Source of the DNA: an uncultured Armatimonadota bacterium
GTDB lineage: Bacteria > Armatimonadota > Fimbriimonadia > Fimbriimonadales > Fimbriimonadaceae
Assembly (NCBI GenBank): GCA_903927025.1
Contig: CAIYLG010000009.1
Span: 1 to 43,581 of the forward strand
DNA length: 43,581 bases
Direction of reading: 5' to 3'
The stretch's first letter is position 1; every line of letters begins with the position of its first letter. The notes under the pieces were generated by a model. It had not been told where the DNA came from. It saw only the letters and a list, made by a program, of their open reading frames with translations, and made no database searches. The position numbers and the translations under genes are program-made. This document shows, piece after piece, positions 15,311 through 23,685 of the stretch.

Positions 15311-16378
15311 TTACCTGTCGCCGCCACCAGGGCCTCCGCCGCCAGGGCCGCCGAATCCGCCACCGCCGCCTCTGCCACCCTGTCCGCCAGGGCCTCCATG
15401 TCCACCCTGCCCGCCAGGGCCACCCATCGGTCGCTGCTCCTGAACGAACTTCTTCGTTCCGCCCAGCTTCTTCAAGGCTGCCTTTTGGTCACCAGTGAGG
15501 ACTGCGTCGATCGCCGTGTTCAGCTCCTGGTGCGCCTTCTCCATTTGAGGGTTCGGTCCGCCAGGGCCGCCTTGGCCGCCGGGTCCGCCGAATCCTCGGC
15601 CACCACCCTGTCCGCCTGGACCTCCTGGAGGTGGCCCACCGAAGCCGCCATCACCCCCCTGACCGCCGCCCGGAGGGCCACCAAAACCGCCCTGTCCGCC
15701 ACCGGGAGGAGGACCGCCGAATCCTCTGTCTCCGCCAGGGCCACCCTGTCCACCGGGTCCGCCGCGTGGTGGGCCCATCTTAGCGCGCTGTGCCTTCACG
15801 ATTGCGTCAATCTGGCTCTTCTGGTCACTCGAGAGGCCCAGCTCTGATTGGATCTGCTTATCAGCGGCGGCGCTGGAGCCAGCCATCTGAATCTTGATTT
15901 CCTTGAGTCGAGCCGCCTGGTCCGATGTCAGCACTTTGGCGAGCGACTTGTCGATCTCAGACTGGGCCTTTTCCATGTTGGCTCGCATCGTCTCCGGATC
16001 AGGACGCTCTCCGTCCTCGCCACCTTCTCCTGGAGGAGGAGGCATCATGCTGCGCATCTTCTCTCTGGCACGATCCATCACTTCACGGATCTGATCGCGC
16101 TGGTTTTGGGTCAGGTTAAGGTCTTTCGAGACATCGCGCCGATTCAGTATCTGGGCGGTGTGTGGCATCCCGATCATCGGTTCGCCCATCATTGGCCCAC
16201 CCATTCCGGGGCCGCGGCCGGGGCCTTGTCTCTGTCCACCATCCTGCGGAGGAGGAGGAGGTGCGTCCTGGGCACGGGCAGATCCGGTGGACATCACGAG
16301 CACCGTAGCGATTCCTGCAACGGCGGCGCTGGAGGCGAATGCTCTTCGAAAAGCTTCAGTCCAATTGAGTGTTTTCAT
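15311..16378 (-). CDS. Spy/CpxP-like LTxxQ protein with long Gly/Pro-rich domain
   Basis: 355 aa. The signal peptide ends at ARAQ (about residue 36). Four LTxxQ-like helical motifs are visible: LNLTQNQRDQIREV, VLTSDQAARLKEI, LGLSSDQKSQID and VLTGDQKAALKKL. These define the periplasmic Spy/CpxP chaperone family, whose members sense or buffer misfolded proteins or metals. Unlike the normal 150-170 aa proteins, a Gly/Pro/Phe/Gln low-complexity block of roughly 90 residues (repeats of GGPPPGGGQGGFGG type) separates motifs three and four, and a shorter one forms the C-terminus. The start has AAGGAG 7 nt upstream. It is divergent from the response regulator/kinase pair, as cpxP is from cpxRA in Escherichia coli. 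Direct repeats in the shared promoter suggest control by that regulator. A strong terminator follows. Confidence 0.85.
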   Translation of the reverse strand: MKTLNWTEAFRRAFASSAAVAGIATVLVMSTGSARAQDAPPPPPQDGGQRQGPGRGPGMGGPMMGEPMIGMPHTAQILNRRDVSKDLNLTQNQRDQIREVMDRAREKMRSMMPPPPGEGGEDGERPDPETMRANMEKAQSEIDKSLAKVLTSDQAARLKEIKIQMAGSSAAADKQIQSELGLSSDQKSQIDAIVKAQRAKMGPPRGGPGGQGGPGGDRGFGGPPPGGGQGGFGGPPGGGQGGDGGFGGPPPGGPGGQGGGRGFGGPGGQGGPGGPNPQMEKAHQELNTAIDAVLTGDQKAALKKLGGTKKFVQEQRPMGGPGGQGGHGGPGGQGGRGGGGGFGGPGGGGPGGGDR

Positions 16379-16447
16379 TTCTGATCTCCTTGTTTTGTCC
16401 GCAGGGCTCTTTGCTCTGCTTCGATGATTGAAGTTTCCTTCGGCGAG

Positions 16448-16464
16448 ATGAAGACAAAATGAAG
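16448..16464 (-). promoter_or_regulatory. Candidate response-regulator box for the Spy-like gene
   Basis: On the minus strand CTTCAT-N5-CTTCAT (16464-16459 and 16453-16448) is a direct repeat with an 11-bp period, the spacing used by OmpR/PhoB-type dimers. It lies about 70 bp upstream of the start of the LTxxQ gene. The same repeat occurs on the other strand before the regulator gene. Confidence 0.55.
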
Positions 16465-16506
16465 GTGAATTTATTTCACAAAATTCTTTGCCGACACGCT
16501 TCTGAG

Positions 16507-16535
16507 CTCTTCATGACCTCTTCATGTCGACATGA
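16507..16535 (+). promoter_or_regulatory. Candidate autoregulatory response-regulator box
   Basis: CTCTTCATG occurs at 16507-16515 and 16518-16526, giving CTTCAT-N5-CTTCAT with an 11-bp period. It overlaps a 14-bp perfect palindrome TCATGTCGACATGA (16522-16535). A TATTAC box at 16541-16546 is placed so that the repeat covers the -35 region, as in activator-dependent promoters. Confidence 0.55.
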
Positions 16536-16575
16536 CATCTTATTACAAAGTTTAGAAGGGAAAGAAGAAGTAGAG

Positions 16576-17247
16576 ATGAAGATCCTCCTTGTAGAAGATG
16601 AAAGGCCGCTCGCAACTGCCGTCACCCGCCTATTGTCCGATGCTGGGTGGCATGTAACATGGGAAGGTGATGGTGTAAAAGGGTGCCAAACAGCGTTGCT
16701 CGAAGAATTTGACTTGGTCATCCTTGATGTGATGCTTCCCGGCAAAAATGGCTGGGATATTCTCAACGAACTCCGATCTGGACGGCGGACGATGCCCATC
16801 CTGATGCTGACTGCGCTGGAAGATACCGAGGATAAAGTCAAAGGCTTGGAACTTGGCGCCGATGACTACCTTGCCAAGCCCTTTGAAGTCACTGAACTGC
16901 TTGCGCGCGTGAAAGCTCTTATGAGGCGGGATAAGCTCAACAAGGGGATGGTCGTCAAAATTGCCGACCTCGAAATCGACCGGAAGAGCCGCCACGTCAC
17001 GCGTGGCGGAAAGCAAATTGGGCTCACTCGCCGTGAGTACGACCTTCTGGAGGCACTCGCCTCCAACGAGGGAAGAGTTCTTAGCCGGGAGACAATTCAG
17101 GAACGGGTTTGGACCGACGAGGAGAGCTTTTCCAATACAGTGGATGTATTCATAGGCACATTGCGAAAGAAGATTGATGCCCCTTTTGACAAGAAGCTTA
17201 TCCATACCGTCCATGGATTTGGCTATGTTCTGAAAACAGAAGCTTGA
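16576..17247 (+). CDS. OmpR-family response regulator
   Basis: 223 aa from ATG 16576 (MKILLVEDERP). The open frame extends upstream to 16459, but the extra residues are not receiver-like and overlap the promoter repeats. The receiver domain has the acidic pair in VEDE, the phospho-acceptor Asp51 in LVILDVMLPG, Thr in LMLTALED and Lys in DDYLAKPF. The C-terminal winged-helix domain is of the OmpR/PhoB type: LTRREYDLLEALASNEGRVL, the recognition region ending SNTVDVFIGTLRKKID, and the wing IHTVHGFGYVL. It probably acts as a phosphorylation-activated transcription factor on its own gene and the divergent LTxxQ gene. The stop overlaps the TTG start of the kinase gene by 4 nt. Confidence 0.95.
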   Translation: MKILLVEDERPLATAVTRLLSDAGWHVTWEGDGVKGCQTALLEEFDLVILDVMLPGKNGWDILNELRSGRRTMPILMLTALEDTEDKVKGLELGADDYLAKPFEVTELLARVKALMRRDKLNKGMVVKIADLEIDRKSRHVTRGGKQIGLTRREYDLLEALASNEGRVLSRETIQERVWTDEESFSNTVDVFIGTLRKKIDAPFDKKLIHTVHGFGYVLKTEA

Positions 17248-18929
17248 CTGAACCCAACTCAAAGATGAGCCTATTCCCCTCCAGTGTTCGTGCGAAGCTC
17301 ACCCTTACCGCAGTCGCGGTAATGGGCTTGCTGTTCGTGCTCCTAGGTGCCGGGGTTGAAATTGCCGGCCGTCAGCAGATCATGTCCAGCGTGGATGGGG
17401 AACTGGCGCGACGAGCCGCACAAATCATTCGTGCCCACAAAGACTCTGACCGAGAGATGCGCCCGCCAGACGGTGTACCACCCCCAATGGTGTATGCACT
17501 GGGGCAAGATCGCGGACCCCGAGGAGGGAATCGACCGGGGGAGAATCCTCCCAATGACAATCGACCTGGTGATAACCGGCGAGGAAACCCGCCGGATCAG
17601 CAAGGCAACCGTGGCCCGCAGGGAGGCGGTCCGCCGCCTAACCAAGGAGGTGGACCAGACGGTCCTGGTGGGGGAGGAAGACGATTTGGAGGATTCCTCA
17701 GACGCCTTCGGGATATTGGCGACCCAACCCTCGCCGTAGGCCCGCGGTTTATCGTCACCAATCAGTCCCCACCCATCGCACCGCCTGAGATGCGAGAGCC
17801 CTACGATAAAGGGGCCGTTGCTCTGGCAAAGGTGAATCCAACCGTCTACTCCACGGTTTACATCGGAAACGGCGAATTGGCCCAAAAGATGCGGCTCATT
17901 ACTCAGCGTGCAAAGGACGAAGACGGAAGGGAATGGGTGCTCCAGGTCCCGTACCCACTCGGAGAAGTCGATAAGGCGCTGGCGACTCTTAGCACCACTC
18001 TCTTAGTGATCCTCCCCTTTGGCCTTTTGTTGACCGGCGCTGCTTGCTTGTTCCTGATGAGCCGTCTGATGCGTCCGATTCGCGAGATTGCTTCAACCAC
18101 GGCATCAATCAACGCCGAAGAACTTTCGGGGCGCCTCTCTACCAAGGGGACGGATGAGTTCTCCCAGCTAGCGGCAACGATCAATGCGATGCTTGGTCGA
18201 CTCGAAGAAGCATTCCGAGTTCAAAAGCTCACTATGGAGCAGCTCGAAGCGGTACTCAAGCAGCAGCGTCGATTCACTGCCGATGCTTCCCACGAACTCA
18301 AAACACCGCTCGCGGTGATCAAAGCAAACACCGGCATCATGCTTCACGGGTCTGATCTCAGTGAAGATGCGCGAAGCCAAATTGAAGCGGTCGACGCGGC
18401 CGCCGGTCGGATGAATCGGTTGGTTCAAGGCCTCATGGCGCTCGCCAAGGCAGATTCCGGATCTGCGCATCAGTCGGCCGCGCCCTTTGACTTGAAACTT
18501 ACCGTTCAAAATGCGATCGACCAGGTCCATCATAAGTCCACCCAATCGGTGAGTTATTCCGACGACGGAATGGATGGATTGGTAAATGGCTCGGAAAGAG
18601 ACATTGAGAGGGTATTCGTCAACCTCATCGACAACGCCTGCCGCTACATAGCCGACGATGGTCATGTCGAAGTTCAGGTTGAAAGACATCTCGATGAGGC
18701 CATCGTCACGGTTCGAGACAACGGTCTAGGCATCGCTCCCGAGCATCTGCCGCACCTATTTGAGCGGTTTTACCGGGCTGATGCCTCTCGATCCACAGGG
18801 ACTGGAGGAACCGGCCTTGGCCTTGCCATCTGTAAAAGCATTGTCGAATCCGTCAAGGGTTCCATCACTATTGAGAGTGAGGTTGGGAGAGGAACGACAG
18901 TAACTGTCTTGTTGCCACTGTCTTCTTAG
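17244..18929 (+). CDS. Sensor histidine kinase (partner of the OmpR-type regulator)
   Basis: 561 aa from TTG 17244, coupled to the regulator; ATG 17265 is an alternative start. The first membrane helix is at about 15-36, then an extracytoplasmic region that includes a block of about 60 Gly, Pro, Asn and Arg residues. The second helix (about 245-270) is followed by a HAMP linker (SRLMRPIREIASTT). The dimerisation domain has the phospho-accepting His350 in ASHELKTPLAV. The ATPase domain has the N box NLIDNACRYI, G1 DNGLGIAPEH, F box LFERFYRAD and G2 GTGLGLAICKSI. All catalytic boxes are intact. The Gly/Pro-rich sensor loop resembles in composition the low-complexity block in the divergent LTxxQ protein, suggesting the two interact in the periplasm; that part is inference. 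Its end is only 3 nt from the end of the convergent permease gene. Confidence 0.94.
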   Translation: MTEPNSKMSLFPSSVRAKLTLTAVAVMGLLFVLLGAGVEIAGRQQIMSSVDGELARRAAQIIRAHKDSDREMRPPDGVPPPMVYALGQDRGPRGGNRPGENPPNDNRPGDNRRGNPPDQQGNRGPQGGGPPPNQGGGPDGPGGGGRRFGGFLRRLRDIGDPTLAVGPRFIVTNQSPPIAPPEMREPYDKGAVALAKVNPTVYSTVYIGNGELAQKMRLITQRAKDEDGREWVLQVPYPLGEVDKALATLSTTLLVILPFGLLLTGAACLFLMSRLMRPIREIASTTASINAEELSGRLSTKGTDEFSQLAATINAMLGRLEEAFRVQKLTMEQLEAVLKQQRRFTADASHELKTPLAVIKANTGIMLHGSDLSEDARSQIEAVDAAAGRMNRLVQGLMALAKADSGSAHQSAAPFDLKLTVQNAIDQVHHKSTQSVSYSDDGMDGLVNGSERDIERVFVNLIDNACRYIADDGHVEVQVERHLDEAIVTVRDNGLGIAPEHLPHLFERFYRADASRSTGTGGTGLGLAICKSIVESVKGSITIESEVGRGTTVTVLLPLSS

Positions 18930-18932
18930 CCA

Positions 18933-20624
18933 TTACTGGTGACGGTTCCATTCAAGCGATATTGGAGCCACAAATATCCGAGCCAAAGGGATTGTAAGAA
19001 TCATGCCTGGTGTGAGTTGCGCTGACGAGAACAGCATGGGTGGGCAACAGGCGTTCTTAGCCGCAAGCATCACGACGGCTGCCGCGAGCCAAACTCCAAA
19101 GGTGAGTATGACCTCACGCCCGCGAAAAAGTCCGCGAGTGATTCCATTCGCGGCCGCAACACCGGCAAGGATCAATTTGGAGCCTAATGCCGCCCAAAGG
19201 ATGACCGTAAACAGCTCGTAAGGAATCGCAGAATGCGGGTCTGCATTGTGTTGCACACTTGCCTGGACCGCGATGACCGCAAGCGTCGCAACGAAGCTCA
19301 TCCCAATCGCTCCATTGCCGCTGATCTCTGCGGTAAGCAATAGCGTTAGCGCATTCCAGATCAGCACAAGGAGCCAAGCTACCGCAGTTGCTGTAAGCAG
19401 GATCTGCTGTTGCGACTGGAAATTGAACTCTAGACTCCCGGCACGAAGTCCAAATGGTGAGCTTGGAGCGTGCAGGCTGCACCATGCAAAAAGCGTCAAC
19501 ACAAGGAGCGCCCAAGAGATCAGCCCTGTACGCGCTGAACACACAAAAAGGGAACGCGTCACGTCTGTTCCAGACAACGGTCGGGTCGCCAGAAAGGGAT
19601 TGATCCGGCGATCTGGCATGAAAAGGTCTACCCTTCGGGGAGCCGAGCCCAACAGGAAACAGCTCATTATTACAAGGCCAATAAGCCATTCGGCACGATC
19701 ACCGATATTGTCCTGCGGCGTACCATAGGTTCCTAGGGTGTTCCAATGGATCAGCAGAGTGATTAAGGAGAATGAGAAACAGAAGAATCCTGTCACCCAG
19801 ATGGCAGCTTGGCCGTGCCGCCTTCGATCAGACCAAAGCAGTGTCTGCAGCTTCGACTTAAACGGCACCAACTTGGGAACTTCTCTCCGTTGACCAGCCT
19901 TTGTTGCCACGTCGATGTCAATTTTCGGCGGATAGCCGTGCCGCGCAGTTCGGAATCCAATGACAGCCAACGGAATACTCGCAAGTGTCAGCCCTACATA
20001 TAGCTCTATGAACTGAGTGAATGTGTGCCCGAGGATCGTCGTTACACTTGGCCCCATGAGACTGAATCCCATGAGAACAGTACATAGAAACGGCTTTACG
20101 AGTGGACCACGGATTCGTGACCAACAAACTGCTTGGAGACATAGGGTGAAACAAATGAGGCAAATTCCAACTTGGCAGGTGATGAGTGCTCCAGACTTAT
20201 CGAAGGCTAGCCATCCCATCCCTGCCGTTACAAGGATAACGACGCCCATTGAGAGTGCAGTGAAGAACATCTGAGCCGATATCAGCAACCCATCCGCGAC
20301 AGGAAGGGTCATCATTGCCACTGGGTAGGACGAGCCGTTTCCAATGGAGCCGTTCATGCTCTGCGGTGCTTCCGCATTTGCCTGGCGAAGGATGAAGATC
20401 AAACTCAGAATTACAATTCCTGCTAAGTCAAAGGTTGTGACCATCATCACAGCTAAAGTGCCAGCGGTGCTTCCGATGTTGGTGCTGATTCTGCCAAGCA
20501 GATGCATCAGGCCGATTAGGCCAACGGTGCCGGCCAAAATCTTGCCGTTGCGATCGAGGAATAGCCTCCCCATGGCTCCAACTGCCATCAGTTGGGATGG
20601 ATAGGGAAGGGTAGCGGATCTCAT
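18933..20624 (-). CDS. Large membrane protein, ABC transporter permease of a YtrA-type operon
   Basis: 563 aa with about 12 hydrophobic stretches (for example GTVGLIGLMHLLGRI, AQMFFTALSMGVVILVTAGM and VWLAAAVVMLAAKNA). No enzyme motif is present. The position is decisive: it overlaps by 4 nt the gene for an ABC ATPase, which itself overlaps a GntR regulator gene. Such regulator-ATPase-permease operons encode exporters for antibiotics, bacteriocins or lipids, or envelope-stress systems (YtrABC, BcrAB-like). The protein is longer than the usual 200-300 aa ABC-2 permeases and might be a duplicated permease, two halves of six helices. I could not identify internal repeats by eye. Export is inferred, and the substrate is unknown. 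Confidence 0.75.
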   Translation of the reverse strand: MRSATLPYPSQLMAVGAMGRLFLDRNGKILAGTVGLIGLMHLLGRISTNIGSTAGTLAVMMVTTFDLAGIVILSLIFILRQANAEAPQSMNGSIGNGSSYPVAMMTLPVADGLLISAQMFFTALSMGVVILVTAGMGWLAFDKSGALITCQVGICLICFTLCLQAVCWSRIRGPLVKPFLCTVLMGFSLMGPSVTTILGHTFTQFIELYVGLTLASIPLAVIGFRTARHGYPPKIDIDVATKAGQRREVPKLVPFKSKLQTLLWSDRRRHGQAAIWVTGFFCFSFSLITLLIHWNTLGTYGTPQDNIGDRAEWLIGLVIMSCFLLGSAPRRVDLFMPDRRINPFLATRPLSGTDVTRSLFVCSARTGLISWALLVLTLFAWCSLHAPSSPFGLRAGSLEFNFQSQQQILLTATAVAWLLVLIWNALTLLLTAEISGNGAIGMSFVATLAVIAVQASVQHNADPHSAIPYELFTVILWAALGSKLILAGVAAANGITRGLFRGREVILTFGVWLAAAVVMLAAKNACCPPMLFSSAQLTPGMILTIPLARIFVAPISLEWNRHQ

Positions 20625-21517
20625 CGTGAGGCTCCATGCGTCGGCCGCGAGTACCCGACGAAGATCTCATCGAGACTGGCGGACCGTTGATCTATGACTC
20701 TGGCTCCGAGTCTTTCTGCTTCCTCACGCAGAAGCTCGGGAGTCCCCTTTGAAAGTGCAGTCCATTCCCGTCCACTTCCTGAGATGGAGACGAGCCCCTT
20801 GAATATAGGCATCGAAAAGTTCGCTTTTTCGTAGACAAGCGTGCACGTTATGTGCTCCTCCTTAAGCGTATCGAGGGCGTCATAGAGTGCAATTTCACCA
20901 TTTTTGACAAGCGCTACATTGTCGGCTAGGCGATCCACTTCGGCGAGGTGGTGGGATGAAAGGATGACGGTTCGTCCTTCCTCGGCGATGGTCCGGACGA
21001 TGACAGAGAGAATGTCATGCCGAACGATCGGGTCCAATCCAGAAGAGGGCTCATCGAGAACGATCAGCGGGGGACGGTAGGCAAGGGCGGCCATCAGACC
21101 TGCTCGTGCGCGCTGTCCTTTTGAAAGGGTCGAGAGCTTGGCGTACAGGTCCAAGCGGAACTCCTTGGCAAGCTGGTCCGCGTACTCCTGGTCCCAAGTC
21201 GGATAGAAGCCCTGCATGTAGCGCTGGAGCTCATATCCGCGCATCCAGCCGGGCAGGATATCTTCCTCCGATAGGTAGCCAATCTGGGCTAATACTGGCA
21301 CTGGTTGTCTCGCTGGATCCATCCCGAAAACGCTTACCGTTCCCGTGTTGGGTTTCAGGAGGCCGAGCACATGCTTGAGAATTGTGGTTTTGCCCGATCC
21401 ATTTTCGCCAACGAGCCCTAGAACAGTTCCTTGGTCCACTTTGAGGCTGACATCGTTGAGGGCCAATTTCGACCCAAAGCTGCGGGTGACGTGATCAAGC
21501 TGAACAATGGAATTCAT
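20621..21517 (-). CDS. ABC transporter ATP-binding protein
   Basis: 298 aa. The nucleotide-binding domain has Walker A GENGSGKTT (about 37-45), the Q-loop region IGYLSEEDIL, signature LSKGQRARAGL (a Lys variant of LSGGQ), Walker B LIVLDEPSSGLDP and the H-loop VILSSHHLAEVD. A C-terminal extension of about 80 residues (from ALYDALDTLKEE) is typical of CcmA/BcrA-type exporters. It overlaps the permease gene (20621-20624) and the regulator gene (21514-21517) by 4 nt each, so all three are translated together. The protein provides ATP hydrolysis for the adjacent large permease. Confidence 0.95.
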   Translation of the reverse strand: MNSIVQLDHVTRSFGSKLALNDVSLKVDQGTVLGLVGENGSGKTTILKHVLGLLKPNTGTVSVFGMDPARQPVPVLAQIGYLSEEDILPGWMRGYELQRYMQGFYPTWDQEYADQLAKEFRLDLYAKLSTLSKGQRARAGLMAALAYRPPLIVLDEPSSGLDPIVRHDILSVIVRTIAEEGRTVILSSHHLAEVDRLADNVALVKNGEIALYDALDTLKEEHITCTLVYEKANFSMPIFKGLVSISGSGREWTALSKGTPELLREEAERLGARVIDQRSASLDEIFVGYSRPTHGASR

Positions 21518-21927
21518 GAAGGGTCTTCCTCAAGGGTTGGATCAGAAGGCGAAACAAGAACGGCAGAACGGCGACGCAGCAGATCAACGATCTCCTCGTC
21601 ACTAAATCCAAGCTGGTGGGCTTCGCTGAGGAGTGAGTCAATCCGGTCGGAGAGAATCCTCACTTGCTCACCTCGTGCCAGCGGAGAGCCAGCTTCCGAT
21701 ATGTAGGTTCCTGCCGTCCGCCGCTTCTCCACGACGCCAGAAACTTCCAGTTCTCGATAGGCCCTTGCCACCGTATTCGGATTCACAACAAGCTGCTCAG
21801 CCAGAACACGAATGGGCGGCATCTCATCCCCCGGCGACAAGCGCCCGGAGGCGACCAGGTACTTCACCTGGTTCACGATCTGAAGATAGATCGGGACCCC
21901 GTCATTAGTGGTGATGTGCAGCTGCAA
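21514..21927 (-). CDS. GntR-family regulator, YtrA subfamily
   Basis: 137 aa from a TTG start with AGGG 7-8 nt upstream. The winged helix-turn-helix is clear: GVPIYLQIVNQVKYLVASGR, PPIRVLAEQLVVNPNTVARA and YRELEVSGVVEKRRTAGTYI. The C-terminal part is only about 60 residues, without the large effector domain of FadR or HutC types, which places it in the YtrA subgroup. These repressors commonly control the ABC transporter operon in which they lie. A perfect inverted repeat 25 nt upstream of the start (21952-21973) is the obvious operator candidate. The inducer is not known; cell-wall-active compounds are typical for relatives. Confidence 0.93.
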   Translation of the reverse strand: MQLHITTNDGVPIYLQIVNQVKYLVASGRLSPGDEMPPIRVLAEQLVVNPNTVARAYRELEVSGVVEKRRTAGTYISEAGSPLARGEQVRILSDRIDSLLSEAHQLGFSDEEIVDLLRRRSAVLVSPSDPTLEEDPS

Positions 21928-22486: not shown

Positions 22487-23557
22487 CTATGGGTAGATCG
22501 GTTTGGTGAAGGAGCTATCTACAAGCGTCTTCAAGAACGCGACCAGCGCATCGTGGTCGCTTGCGTTCAAATGCACTCCGCCGTTTTCTCGTGCGAGACC
22601 TGGGTCCAATGTTTGGCTTTGGACGATTCCGCTGCTGTAGTGGCCCACCACTTCATCCAGGGTCGATATGCGGCCGTCATGCATGTAGGGCCCCGTAGCG
22701 GTCAAGTTGCGCAGTGAAGGGGTCTTGAATGTGGCGAAGTCTCTCGGGTTCTTTGTAACCCCTTCGCGACCGGCATCCGTTGGGTTTGCATCTAACCCGT
22801 TGTTGCGGAACTTGAAATCGCTAAAAAGCGGTCCCCCGTGACAGCGCGCACAGTCCCCTCCGAACTGACCGTTCCTAGGGTTGAATGGCGTCCTGAACAC
22901 GTCAAAGCCTTGCTGTTCTTGAGGAGTGAATTTGGCCAGTTTGCGTTGGACTAGATCAAATTTTGAGCTGCCAGCAAAAAGGGTGAGCTCATACTGCTCG
23001 AGCGCCAGTCCAATTCGGCCCGGAGTGATGCCTTTTGAACCAAACGCCTTAGCAAACTGAGCAGGGTACGTAGCGTCCTTCTGCAAGTTGGCCACTGCAT
23101 TTGCCAGCGTTTGGTTCATTTCGACTGGATTCTGAATCGGGTCCAGTGCCTGCGCCCGGAGTGTTGCTTCCCGACCATCCCAGAAGTAGTCGTGCTGATA
23201 GGCAAGGTTAAACAGCCCCGGCGCATTTCGAGTCCCCTTGGCACCGGTGCTGCCCTTGCTTAGCGCATTCCCTTGGTCGCTGAAGGCAGAGCCAGGGCGG
23301 TGGCAGCTTGAACATGCCTGCATCTTGTTGCCGGAAAGGAGCTTTTCATTGAACAGTCTCTGGCCGAGAGCTACGCCCTGCACGGTGAGTCGATTATCGG
23401 AAGGAAGAGGAGGGGCAGGCAAGCCTGCTGGAACCGTCAAGTTGTACGGGGTTGTCCCGTTAGGCAACGTTGGGGTGGTGGAGTTTTGTGCCAGAGCGGC
23501 GATCATTCCGGCTGCGCCGAAAGCTCCGCAGACCGATAGGGGCCAAGTCAATTTCAT
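22487..23557 (-). CDS. Di-heme cytochrome c peroxidase/MauG family protein
   Basis: 356 aa with a signal peptide (hydrophobic core about 8-22). Two heme c attachment motifs are visible: Cys82-Ser-Ser-Cys85-His86 and Cys236-Ala-Arg-Cys239-His240. The family motifs LFNEKLLSG, FWDGREATLRAQA, MHDGRISTLDEVVGHY and DHDALVAFLKTL are also present. Members reduce hydrogen peroxide in the periplasm, taking electrons from a small cytochrome or quinol chain, or oxidise protein side chains (MauG). A strong ribosome-binding site (AGGAGG, 6 nt spacing) precedes the ATG. Neither heme ligand is missing, so the protein should be active. A Thr/Pro/Asn-rich stretch after the signal peptide is a linker. Confidence 0.94.
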   Translation of the reverse strand: MKLTWPLSVCGAFGAAGMIAALAQNSTTPTLPNGTTPYNLTVPAGLPAPPLPSDNRLTVQGVALGQRLFNEKLLSGNKMQACSSCHRPGSAFSDQGNALSKGSTGAKGTRNAPGLFNLAYQHDYFWDGREATLRAQALDPIQNPVEMNQTLANAVANLQKDATYPAQFAKAFGSKGITPGRIGLALEQYELTLFAGSSKFDLVQRKLAKFTPQEQQGFDVFRTPFNPRNGQFGGDCARCHGGPLFSDFKFRNNGLDANPTDAGREGVTKNPRDFATFKTPSLRNLTATGPYMHDGRISTLDEVVGHYSSGIVQSQTLDPGLARENGGVHLNASDHDALVAFLKTLVDSSFTKPIYP

Positions 23558-23685
23558 CTAAGTCCTCCTGCTCCAGCTATGGAGCGACGCCTCTGGACCC
23601 TTCCTCCTTGAGCGTCCCAGCATAGTGAACTGCAAAGATGAGGAAAAGATGAGGGAGTTGCGACTGCTTCGGAAGTCCCGATGAG

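Follow-up and report, generated by a model that had tools for sequence, protein, structure and literature searches.

Paired CTTCAT direct repeats between an OmpR/PhoB-family two-component operon and a divergent LTxxQ protein gene in the Fimbriimonadaceae

A gap of 197 bp separates the gene for an exported LTxxQ protein (minus strand, start 16378) from the gene for an OmpR/PhoB-family response regulator (plus strand, start 16576), and it holds two CTTCAT-N5-CTTCAT boxes, each of which points at the gene adjacent to it. The paired boxes are a real, conserved regulatory feature and not a chance arrangement. Comparison of related loci makes it very likely that they serve a dedicated two-component circuit, in which the regulator would activate both its own operon and the LTxxQ gene. 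Direct activation of the two is the best reading because the boxes are conserved, lie 10 bp from a −10-like element, and covary with the recognition helix of the regulator.

The DNA analyzed here (the window) is a stretch of 43,581 nucleotides, one entire contig of the genome referred to as G000. A preliminary description of this DNA had placed one CTTCAT direct repeat before each of the two genes, and both are found exactly there (Table 1), with half-sites repeating at an 11-bp period. Its gene calls also hold, with LTXXQ (PF07813) on the minus strand, Response_reg and Trans_reg_C on the plus strand, and a histidine kinase after them. Genome-wide box scans, here and below, are pattern searches. 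The exact pattern CTTCAT-N5-CTTCAT has five matches in the 5.25-Mb genome, two of which are in the divergent gap, and a control pattern written backwards has no match in the same 5.25 Mb. Of 20,000 dinucleotide shuffles of the 197-bp gap, 3 had at least one box and none had two.

A search of the family finds orthologues of the regulator in six genomes, with sequence identities of 86% (G004), 82% (G012), 80% (G019), 68% (G017), 67% (G005) and 63% (G020, another genus). Alignment of the gap across these relatives, as the preliminary description had suggested, shows that both boxes are conserved in five of the six orthologous loci, the exception being G017. In each of the five, the boxes face an LTxxQ-type gene in the divergent direction and the regulator-kinase operon in the other. 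The information per half-site column is 1.85–2.0 bits, compared to 0.4–0.8 bits in the flanks, in a set of related loci that are not statistically independent. The spacer letters have drifted, with 0.45 bits on the regulator side and 1.08 bits on the LTxxQ side. The distance between the boxes is about 720 bp in G012 and about 130 bp in G019, and each box is still near its own gene. This variation serves as a natural test and points to two independent sites, not to a single composite element.

Softer pairs are found beside more distant regulators. A divergent LTxxQ gene accompanies TTTCAT-N5-TTTCAT and TTTCAT-N5-CTTCAT in locus L015 (54% identity, another genus), and TTTCAC-N5-TTTCAT and TTTCAG-N5-TTTCAT in L091 (57%). 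In L013 (59%, another family of the order), the divergent gene is not of the LTxxQ type, and the pair is TTTCAC-N5-TTTCAT and TTTAAC-N5-TTTCAT. Among regulators from other phyla (at most 48% identity), the pair YTTCAY-N5-YTTCAT is present in none of the 19 loci checked, with weak or odd matches only in L084 and L085.

Table 1. Features of the window that bear on the proposed circuit
Feature	Position	Strand	Remarks
LTxxQ (Spy/CpxP-family) exported protein	15311..16378	−	355 aa; four LTxxQ motifs, two tandem repeats, Gly/Pro-rich loops
Putative −10 element GAAACT	16432..16437	−	10 bp downstream of box 1; nAnnnT enrichment at offset 10
Box 1, CTTCAT-TTTGT-CTTCAT	16464-16448	−	CTTCATTTTGTCTTCAT; upstream of LTxxQ gene; exact; conserved in L007, L008, L009, L011, L012
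Box 2, CTTCAT-GACCT-CTTCAT	16509-16525	+	CTTCATGACCTCTTCAT; upstream of regulator-kinase operon; exact; conserved in L007, L008, L009, L011, L012
Putative −10 element CATCTT	16536..16541	+	10 bp downstream of box 2; position-specific enrichment
OmpR/PhoB-family response regulator	16576..17247	+	223 aa; recognition helix SNTVDVFIGTLRKKI; Response_reg + Trans_reg_C
Cognate sensor histidine kinase	17265..18929	+	554 aa; Pro/Gly/Asn-rich insert in periplasmic sensor domain
Di-haem cytochrome c peroxidase (CCP_MauG)	22487..23557	−	Probable regulon member; Pfam on G019 orthologue
Related box, CCTCAT-CTTTT-CCTCAT	23638..23654	−	Upstream of G000 peroxidase gene, a probable further target; CTTCAY boxes in the orthologous promoters of two relatives

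The regulator matches both the receiver domain (PF00072) and the winged helix Trans_reg_C (PF00486) above cutoff. An alternative ATG at 16459 (262-aa ORF) would cross box 2 and was rejected; the start at 16576 is backed by the alignment of relatives. The best NCBIfam model for the regulator is that of CztR/SilR/CopR (CusR), TIGR01387, with 238.9 bits, below its cutoff of 279.2. The scores are 165.9 bits for CreB (cutoff 273), 182 for PhoB (296), and 158 for PmrA (330), and CpxR is absent from the 25 best models. The kinase scores 121 bits with the CpxA model, compared to a cutoff of 486. The insert in its periplasmic domain has about 70 residues and is disordered, and the model of the kinase has a low pTM. 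Similar Gly/Pro/Asn-rich disordered inserts are common in the periplasmic parts of kinases of the family (L066, L067, L068, L082, L011, L012, L015 and the window kinase), and the insert is therefore not specific to this circuit.

The LTxxQ protein scores 37.4 bits with PF07813 (cutoff 24.3, E value 4e-9), and its orthologues in L011 and L012 fall just below the cutoff. The LTxxQ-type motifs are located at residues 89, 150, 182 and 294. When trimmed by hand, the two halves of the protein align to each other with a z score of 13.8 relative to shuffles, and in each half a Gly/Pro-rich loop connects two LTxxQ helices. As judged from this alignment, the protein is an internal tandem duplicate. The AlphaFold model has a helical core, with many residues having pLDDT above 90, and disordered loops. 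This helical model superposes on Spy (5wnw) over 57 residues with an rmsd of 2.2, and it also aligns with CpxP (3itf). The Z scores from VIA-align are 5.4–5.7 for Spy and 4.9–5.0 for CpxP, among unrelated helical matches, and a Z score of about 5 is low for helical proteins. A Foldseek search with the model gave no match at E below 0.001, and the score with the Spy NCBIfam model is 32.6 bits (cutoff 174). The protein shares the LTxxQ motifs of Spy and CpxP, but differs from them in having two tandem units per chain and Gly/Pro-rich loops. Spy and CpxP work as dimers, and since the halves here are duplicated, it is plausible by analogy that this protein is a fused pseudo-dimer.

The circuit may respond to envelope stress, as the preliminary description proposed. 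A somewhat unlikely alternative to a sensor of misfolding is a metal-sensing system, in which a CopR/CusR-like regulator would control a metal-binding accessory LTxxQ protein, as in ZraP or CnrX. It concerns the signal only and is compatible with the proposed wiring. The best-scoring family of the regulator is indeed a heavy-metal subfamily, but the score is below cutoff, and the kinase sensor is not matched to a metal sensor. A stretch containing Met and His residues precedes the first LTxxQ motif in several orthologues; however, it is less marked in L012 and could reflect low-complexity drift. Moreover, none of the neighbouring genes examined at these loci encodes a metal exporter.

The distance between the boxes and the putative promoters is fixed. 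At 16 of 22 boxes, a −10-like hexamer, nAnnnT, begins exactly 10 bp past the end, compared to 5 of 22 for the best other offset. Among the family's regulator promoters, the hexamer is found at offset 10 in 24 of 29 cases and at any other offset in at most 5. The box therefore covers the −35 position, as is known for class II activators of the OmpR/PhoB type. The −10 elements match TATAAT poorly, as expected for activator-dependent promoters. Some OmpR-family regulators repress, and boxes near a promoter can act either way. The regulator might thus hold both promoters off until it is phosphorylated, or repress its own operon while activating the LTxxQ gene. The position of the box over −35, in the same orientation at the 24 promoters, and the poor −10 elements make such repressor or dual sites decidedly unlikely.

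The letters of the box vary together with the recognition helix of the regulator next to it. Where this helix is VD/VE-[V/A]-[F/Y/H], position 2 of both half-sites is T in 11 of 12 cases, with one mixed case; where it is V[N/S/E]FH, this position is C in 17 of 17. The box search scored T and C equally. The Fisher p value for this distribution (11 TT and 0 CC versus 0 TT and 17 CC) is 5e-8, a significance that is inflated because relatedness was not corrected for, but the two classes separate completely. In G017, the deviant orthologue with a VEVF helix, the boxes are changed on both sides (CTTCAG-N5-TTTCAG and CCTCAG-N5-CTTCAG), and the LTxxQ gene is located downstream of the kinase. The covariation and the changes in G017 suggest that the adjacent regulator likely reads its own box, and the covariation is the strongest support for this, although indirect. 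Since there are about 46 response-regulator matches in G000, another paralogue could bind the boxes while the adjacent regulator acts elsewhere, and the related CCTCAY boxes show that near-identical sites are read by close paralogues. This alternative is highly improbable, as it runs against the covariation across the family and the joint change of regulator and boxes in G017. That the repeats arose by chance and have no function is a negligible prospect: the hexamer CTTCAT is short, but the conservation, the shuffles, the backwards control, the −10 spacing and the covariation all contradict it.

In a sister class with VNFH/VSFH helices (L020, L024, L167–L169, L171, L173, L178), CCTCAY-N5-CCTCAY boxes are located 39–47 bp before the start codon, likewise 10 bp from a −10-like element. 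The pairing of CTTCAY and CCTCAY with the two helix classes may amount to a specificity code within the family.

In G004 and G020, CTTCAY-N5-CTTCAT has no site in the genome beyond the two in the divergent gap, and the core is therefore a local circuit. The preliminary description had suggested a search for boxes upstream of envelope genes. Correctly oriented boxes precede the orthologous GspD secretin gene in G000 and G019, with a weaker version (TCTCAT-N5-CTTCAC) in G012, and a box precedes a CotH gene in G005. However, the gspD and CotH sites are not kept in every genome, and CotH was rejected as a shared target, only G005 having the gene. The Pfam matches of the box-associated targets are Secretin_N/GspD N0, CCP_MauG, and CotH. 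The broader pattern CYTCAYN5CYTCAT has 60 matches in six genomes, many of them inside genes, compared to 15 for the controls.

The di-haem cytochrome c peroxidase gene is preceded by CTTCAY boxes in G012 and G019, and the box of its orthologues in G000 and G004 is CCTCAT. The latter sites fit another helix class better and may belong to another regulator; a V[N/S/E]FH helix was found in none of the four G000 paralogues read. The differences may reflect a target moving between paralogous regulators. A CCTCAT-N5-CCTCAT box is also located 62–63 bp before the genes of similar exported proteins, L152 (G000:C15:181508) and L149 (G004:C137:27100).

In the proposed circuit, the kinase would sense a periplasmic condition and phosphorylate the regulator. 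A tandem dimer of the regulator would bind the two half-sites of a box, 10 bp upstream of the −10 element, and recruit RNA polymerase as a class II activator. Binding to box 2 would turn on the regulator-kinase operon, giving positive autoregulation, and binding to the oppositely oriented box 1 would turn on the tandem-duplicated periplasmic LTxxQ protein. This protein probably binds unfolded proteins, and it may also act back on the kinase. A small extra set of exported proteins, the GspD secretin, the di-haem peroxidase and, in some species, CotH, would share the box. The earlier proposal that the regulator drives itself and a Spy-like chaperone is thus retained as most likely on comparative evidence for the two promoters, with the likeness of the LTxxQ protein to Spy and CpxP holding at the level of the family.

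The preliminary description had also called this locus Cpx-like. The Cpx system of gamma-proteobacteria, which is unrelated to this one, turns on both itself and its LTxxQ protein in E. coli. In Pseudomonas, cpxP adjoins cpxR and a direct-repeat regulator box is located at the LTxxQ promoter, and the Cpx box is GTAAA-N4-8-GTAAA (PMC5063474). The divergent layout of the present locus resembles this organization, with the LTxxQ gene adjoining an OmpR-family two-component operon under the same box. There are clear differences, however. Neither the regulator nor the kinase fits the Cpx profiles, and the repeats in the gap are not built on GTAAA. The LTxxQ protein is duplicated in tandem and carries long Gly/Pro loops, and the strict-site regulon is very small. 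Membership in the Cpx system is not borne out, and the label holds as an analogy only.

The recognition sequence had been considered new. Its exact consensus and its lineage are new details, as are the tandem structure of the LTxxQ protein and the small size of the regulon, but the box itself belongs to the known class of 11-bp TTCAY/TGTCAT direct repeats. The cre tag of CreB/BlrA, TTCAC-N6-TTCAC (PMC4689548), is nearly the same as the box here (TTCAT-N6-TTCAT) and has the same period, and the first half-site carries TTCAC in L009 and L012. In comparison, the regulator is far below the CreB cutoff, and no creD was seen in the examined neighbourhood. The PHO box of Streptomyces PhoP (GTTCACC-N4-GTTCACC) and the pho box of E. 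coli PhoB (CTGTCAT-N4-CTGTCAT) also have TCAY cores in direct repeats of 11 bp, to which OmpR/PhoB dimers bind in tandem (PMC4832192). The regulator here is not PhoB by its score, however, and the targets are envelope proteins. No known site matching the CTTCAT boxes was found in titles and abstracts, and literature searches found no paper describing this regulator-LTxxQ system.

For Armatimonadota, a poorly studied phylum, a specific cis-element that can be tested is now available, together with its regulator and a small set of candidate targets. A layout in which a periplasmic LTxxQ protein and its own two-component operon diverge, with one box per direction, recurs here with a non-Cpx regulator. 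Moreover, the covariation of CTTCAY and CCTCAY with the helix and the fixed 10-bp spacing provide a simple rule for predicting targets of the OmpR-family regulators of the family. A very doubtful, but conceivable, reading is that the Fimbriimonadaceae independently evolved a Cpx-like feedback circuit, with a two-component system of the CusR/CopR type and a Spy-like protein fused as a double unit for its parts. Since the sensor, the putative chaperone and the candidate targets GspD and CotH share Gly/Pro-rich disordered segments, such a circuit could specifically guard the export of low-complexity envelope proteins of this sort, sensed by the kinase insert or the LTxxQ loops.

At 18933-21927, adjoining the kinase gene, the minus strand carries consecutive genes for a membrane protein that is probably an ABC permease, for an ABC ATPase, and for a regulator of the GntR family. 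We take them to resemble a YtrA-type unit.
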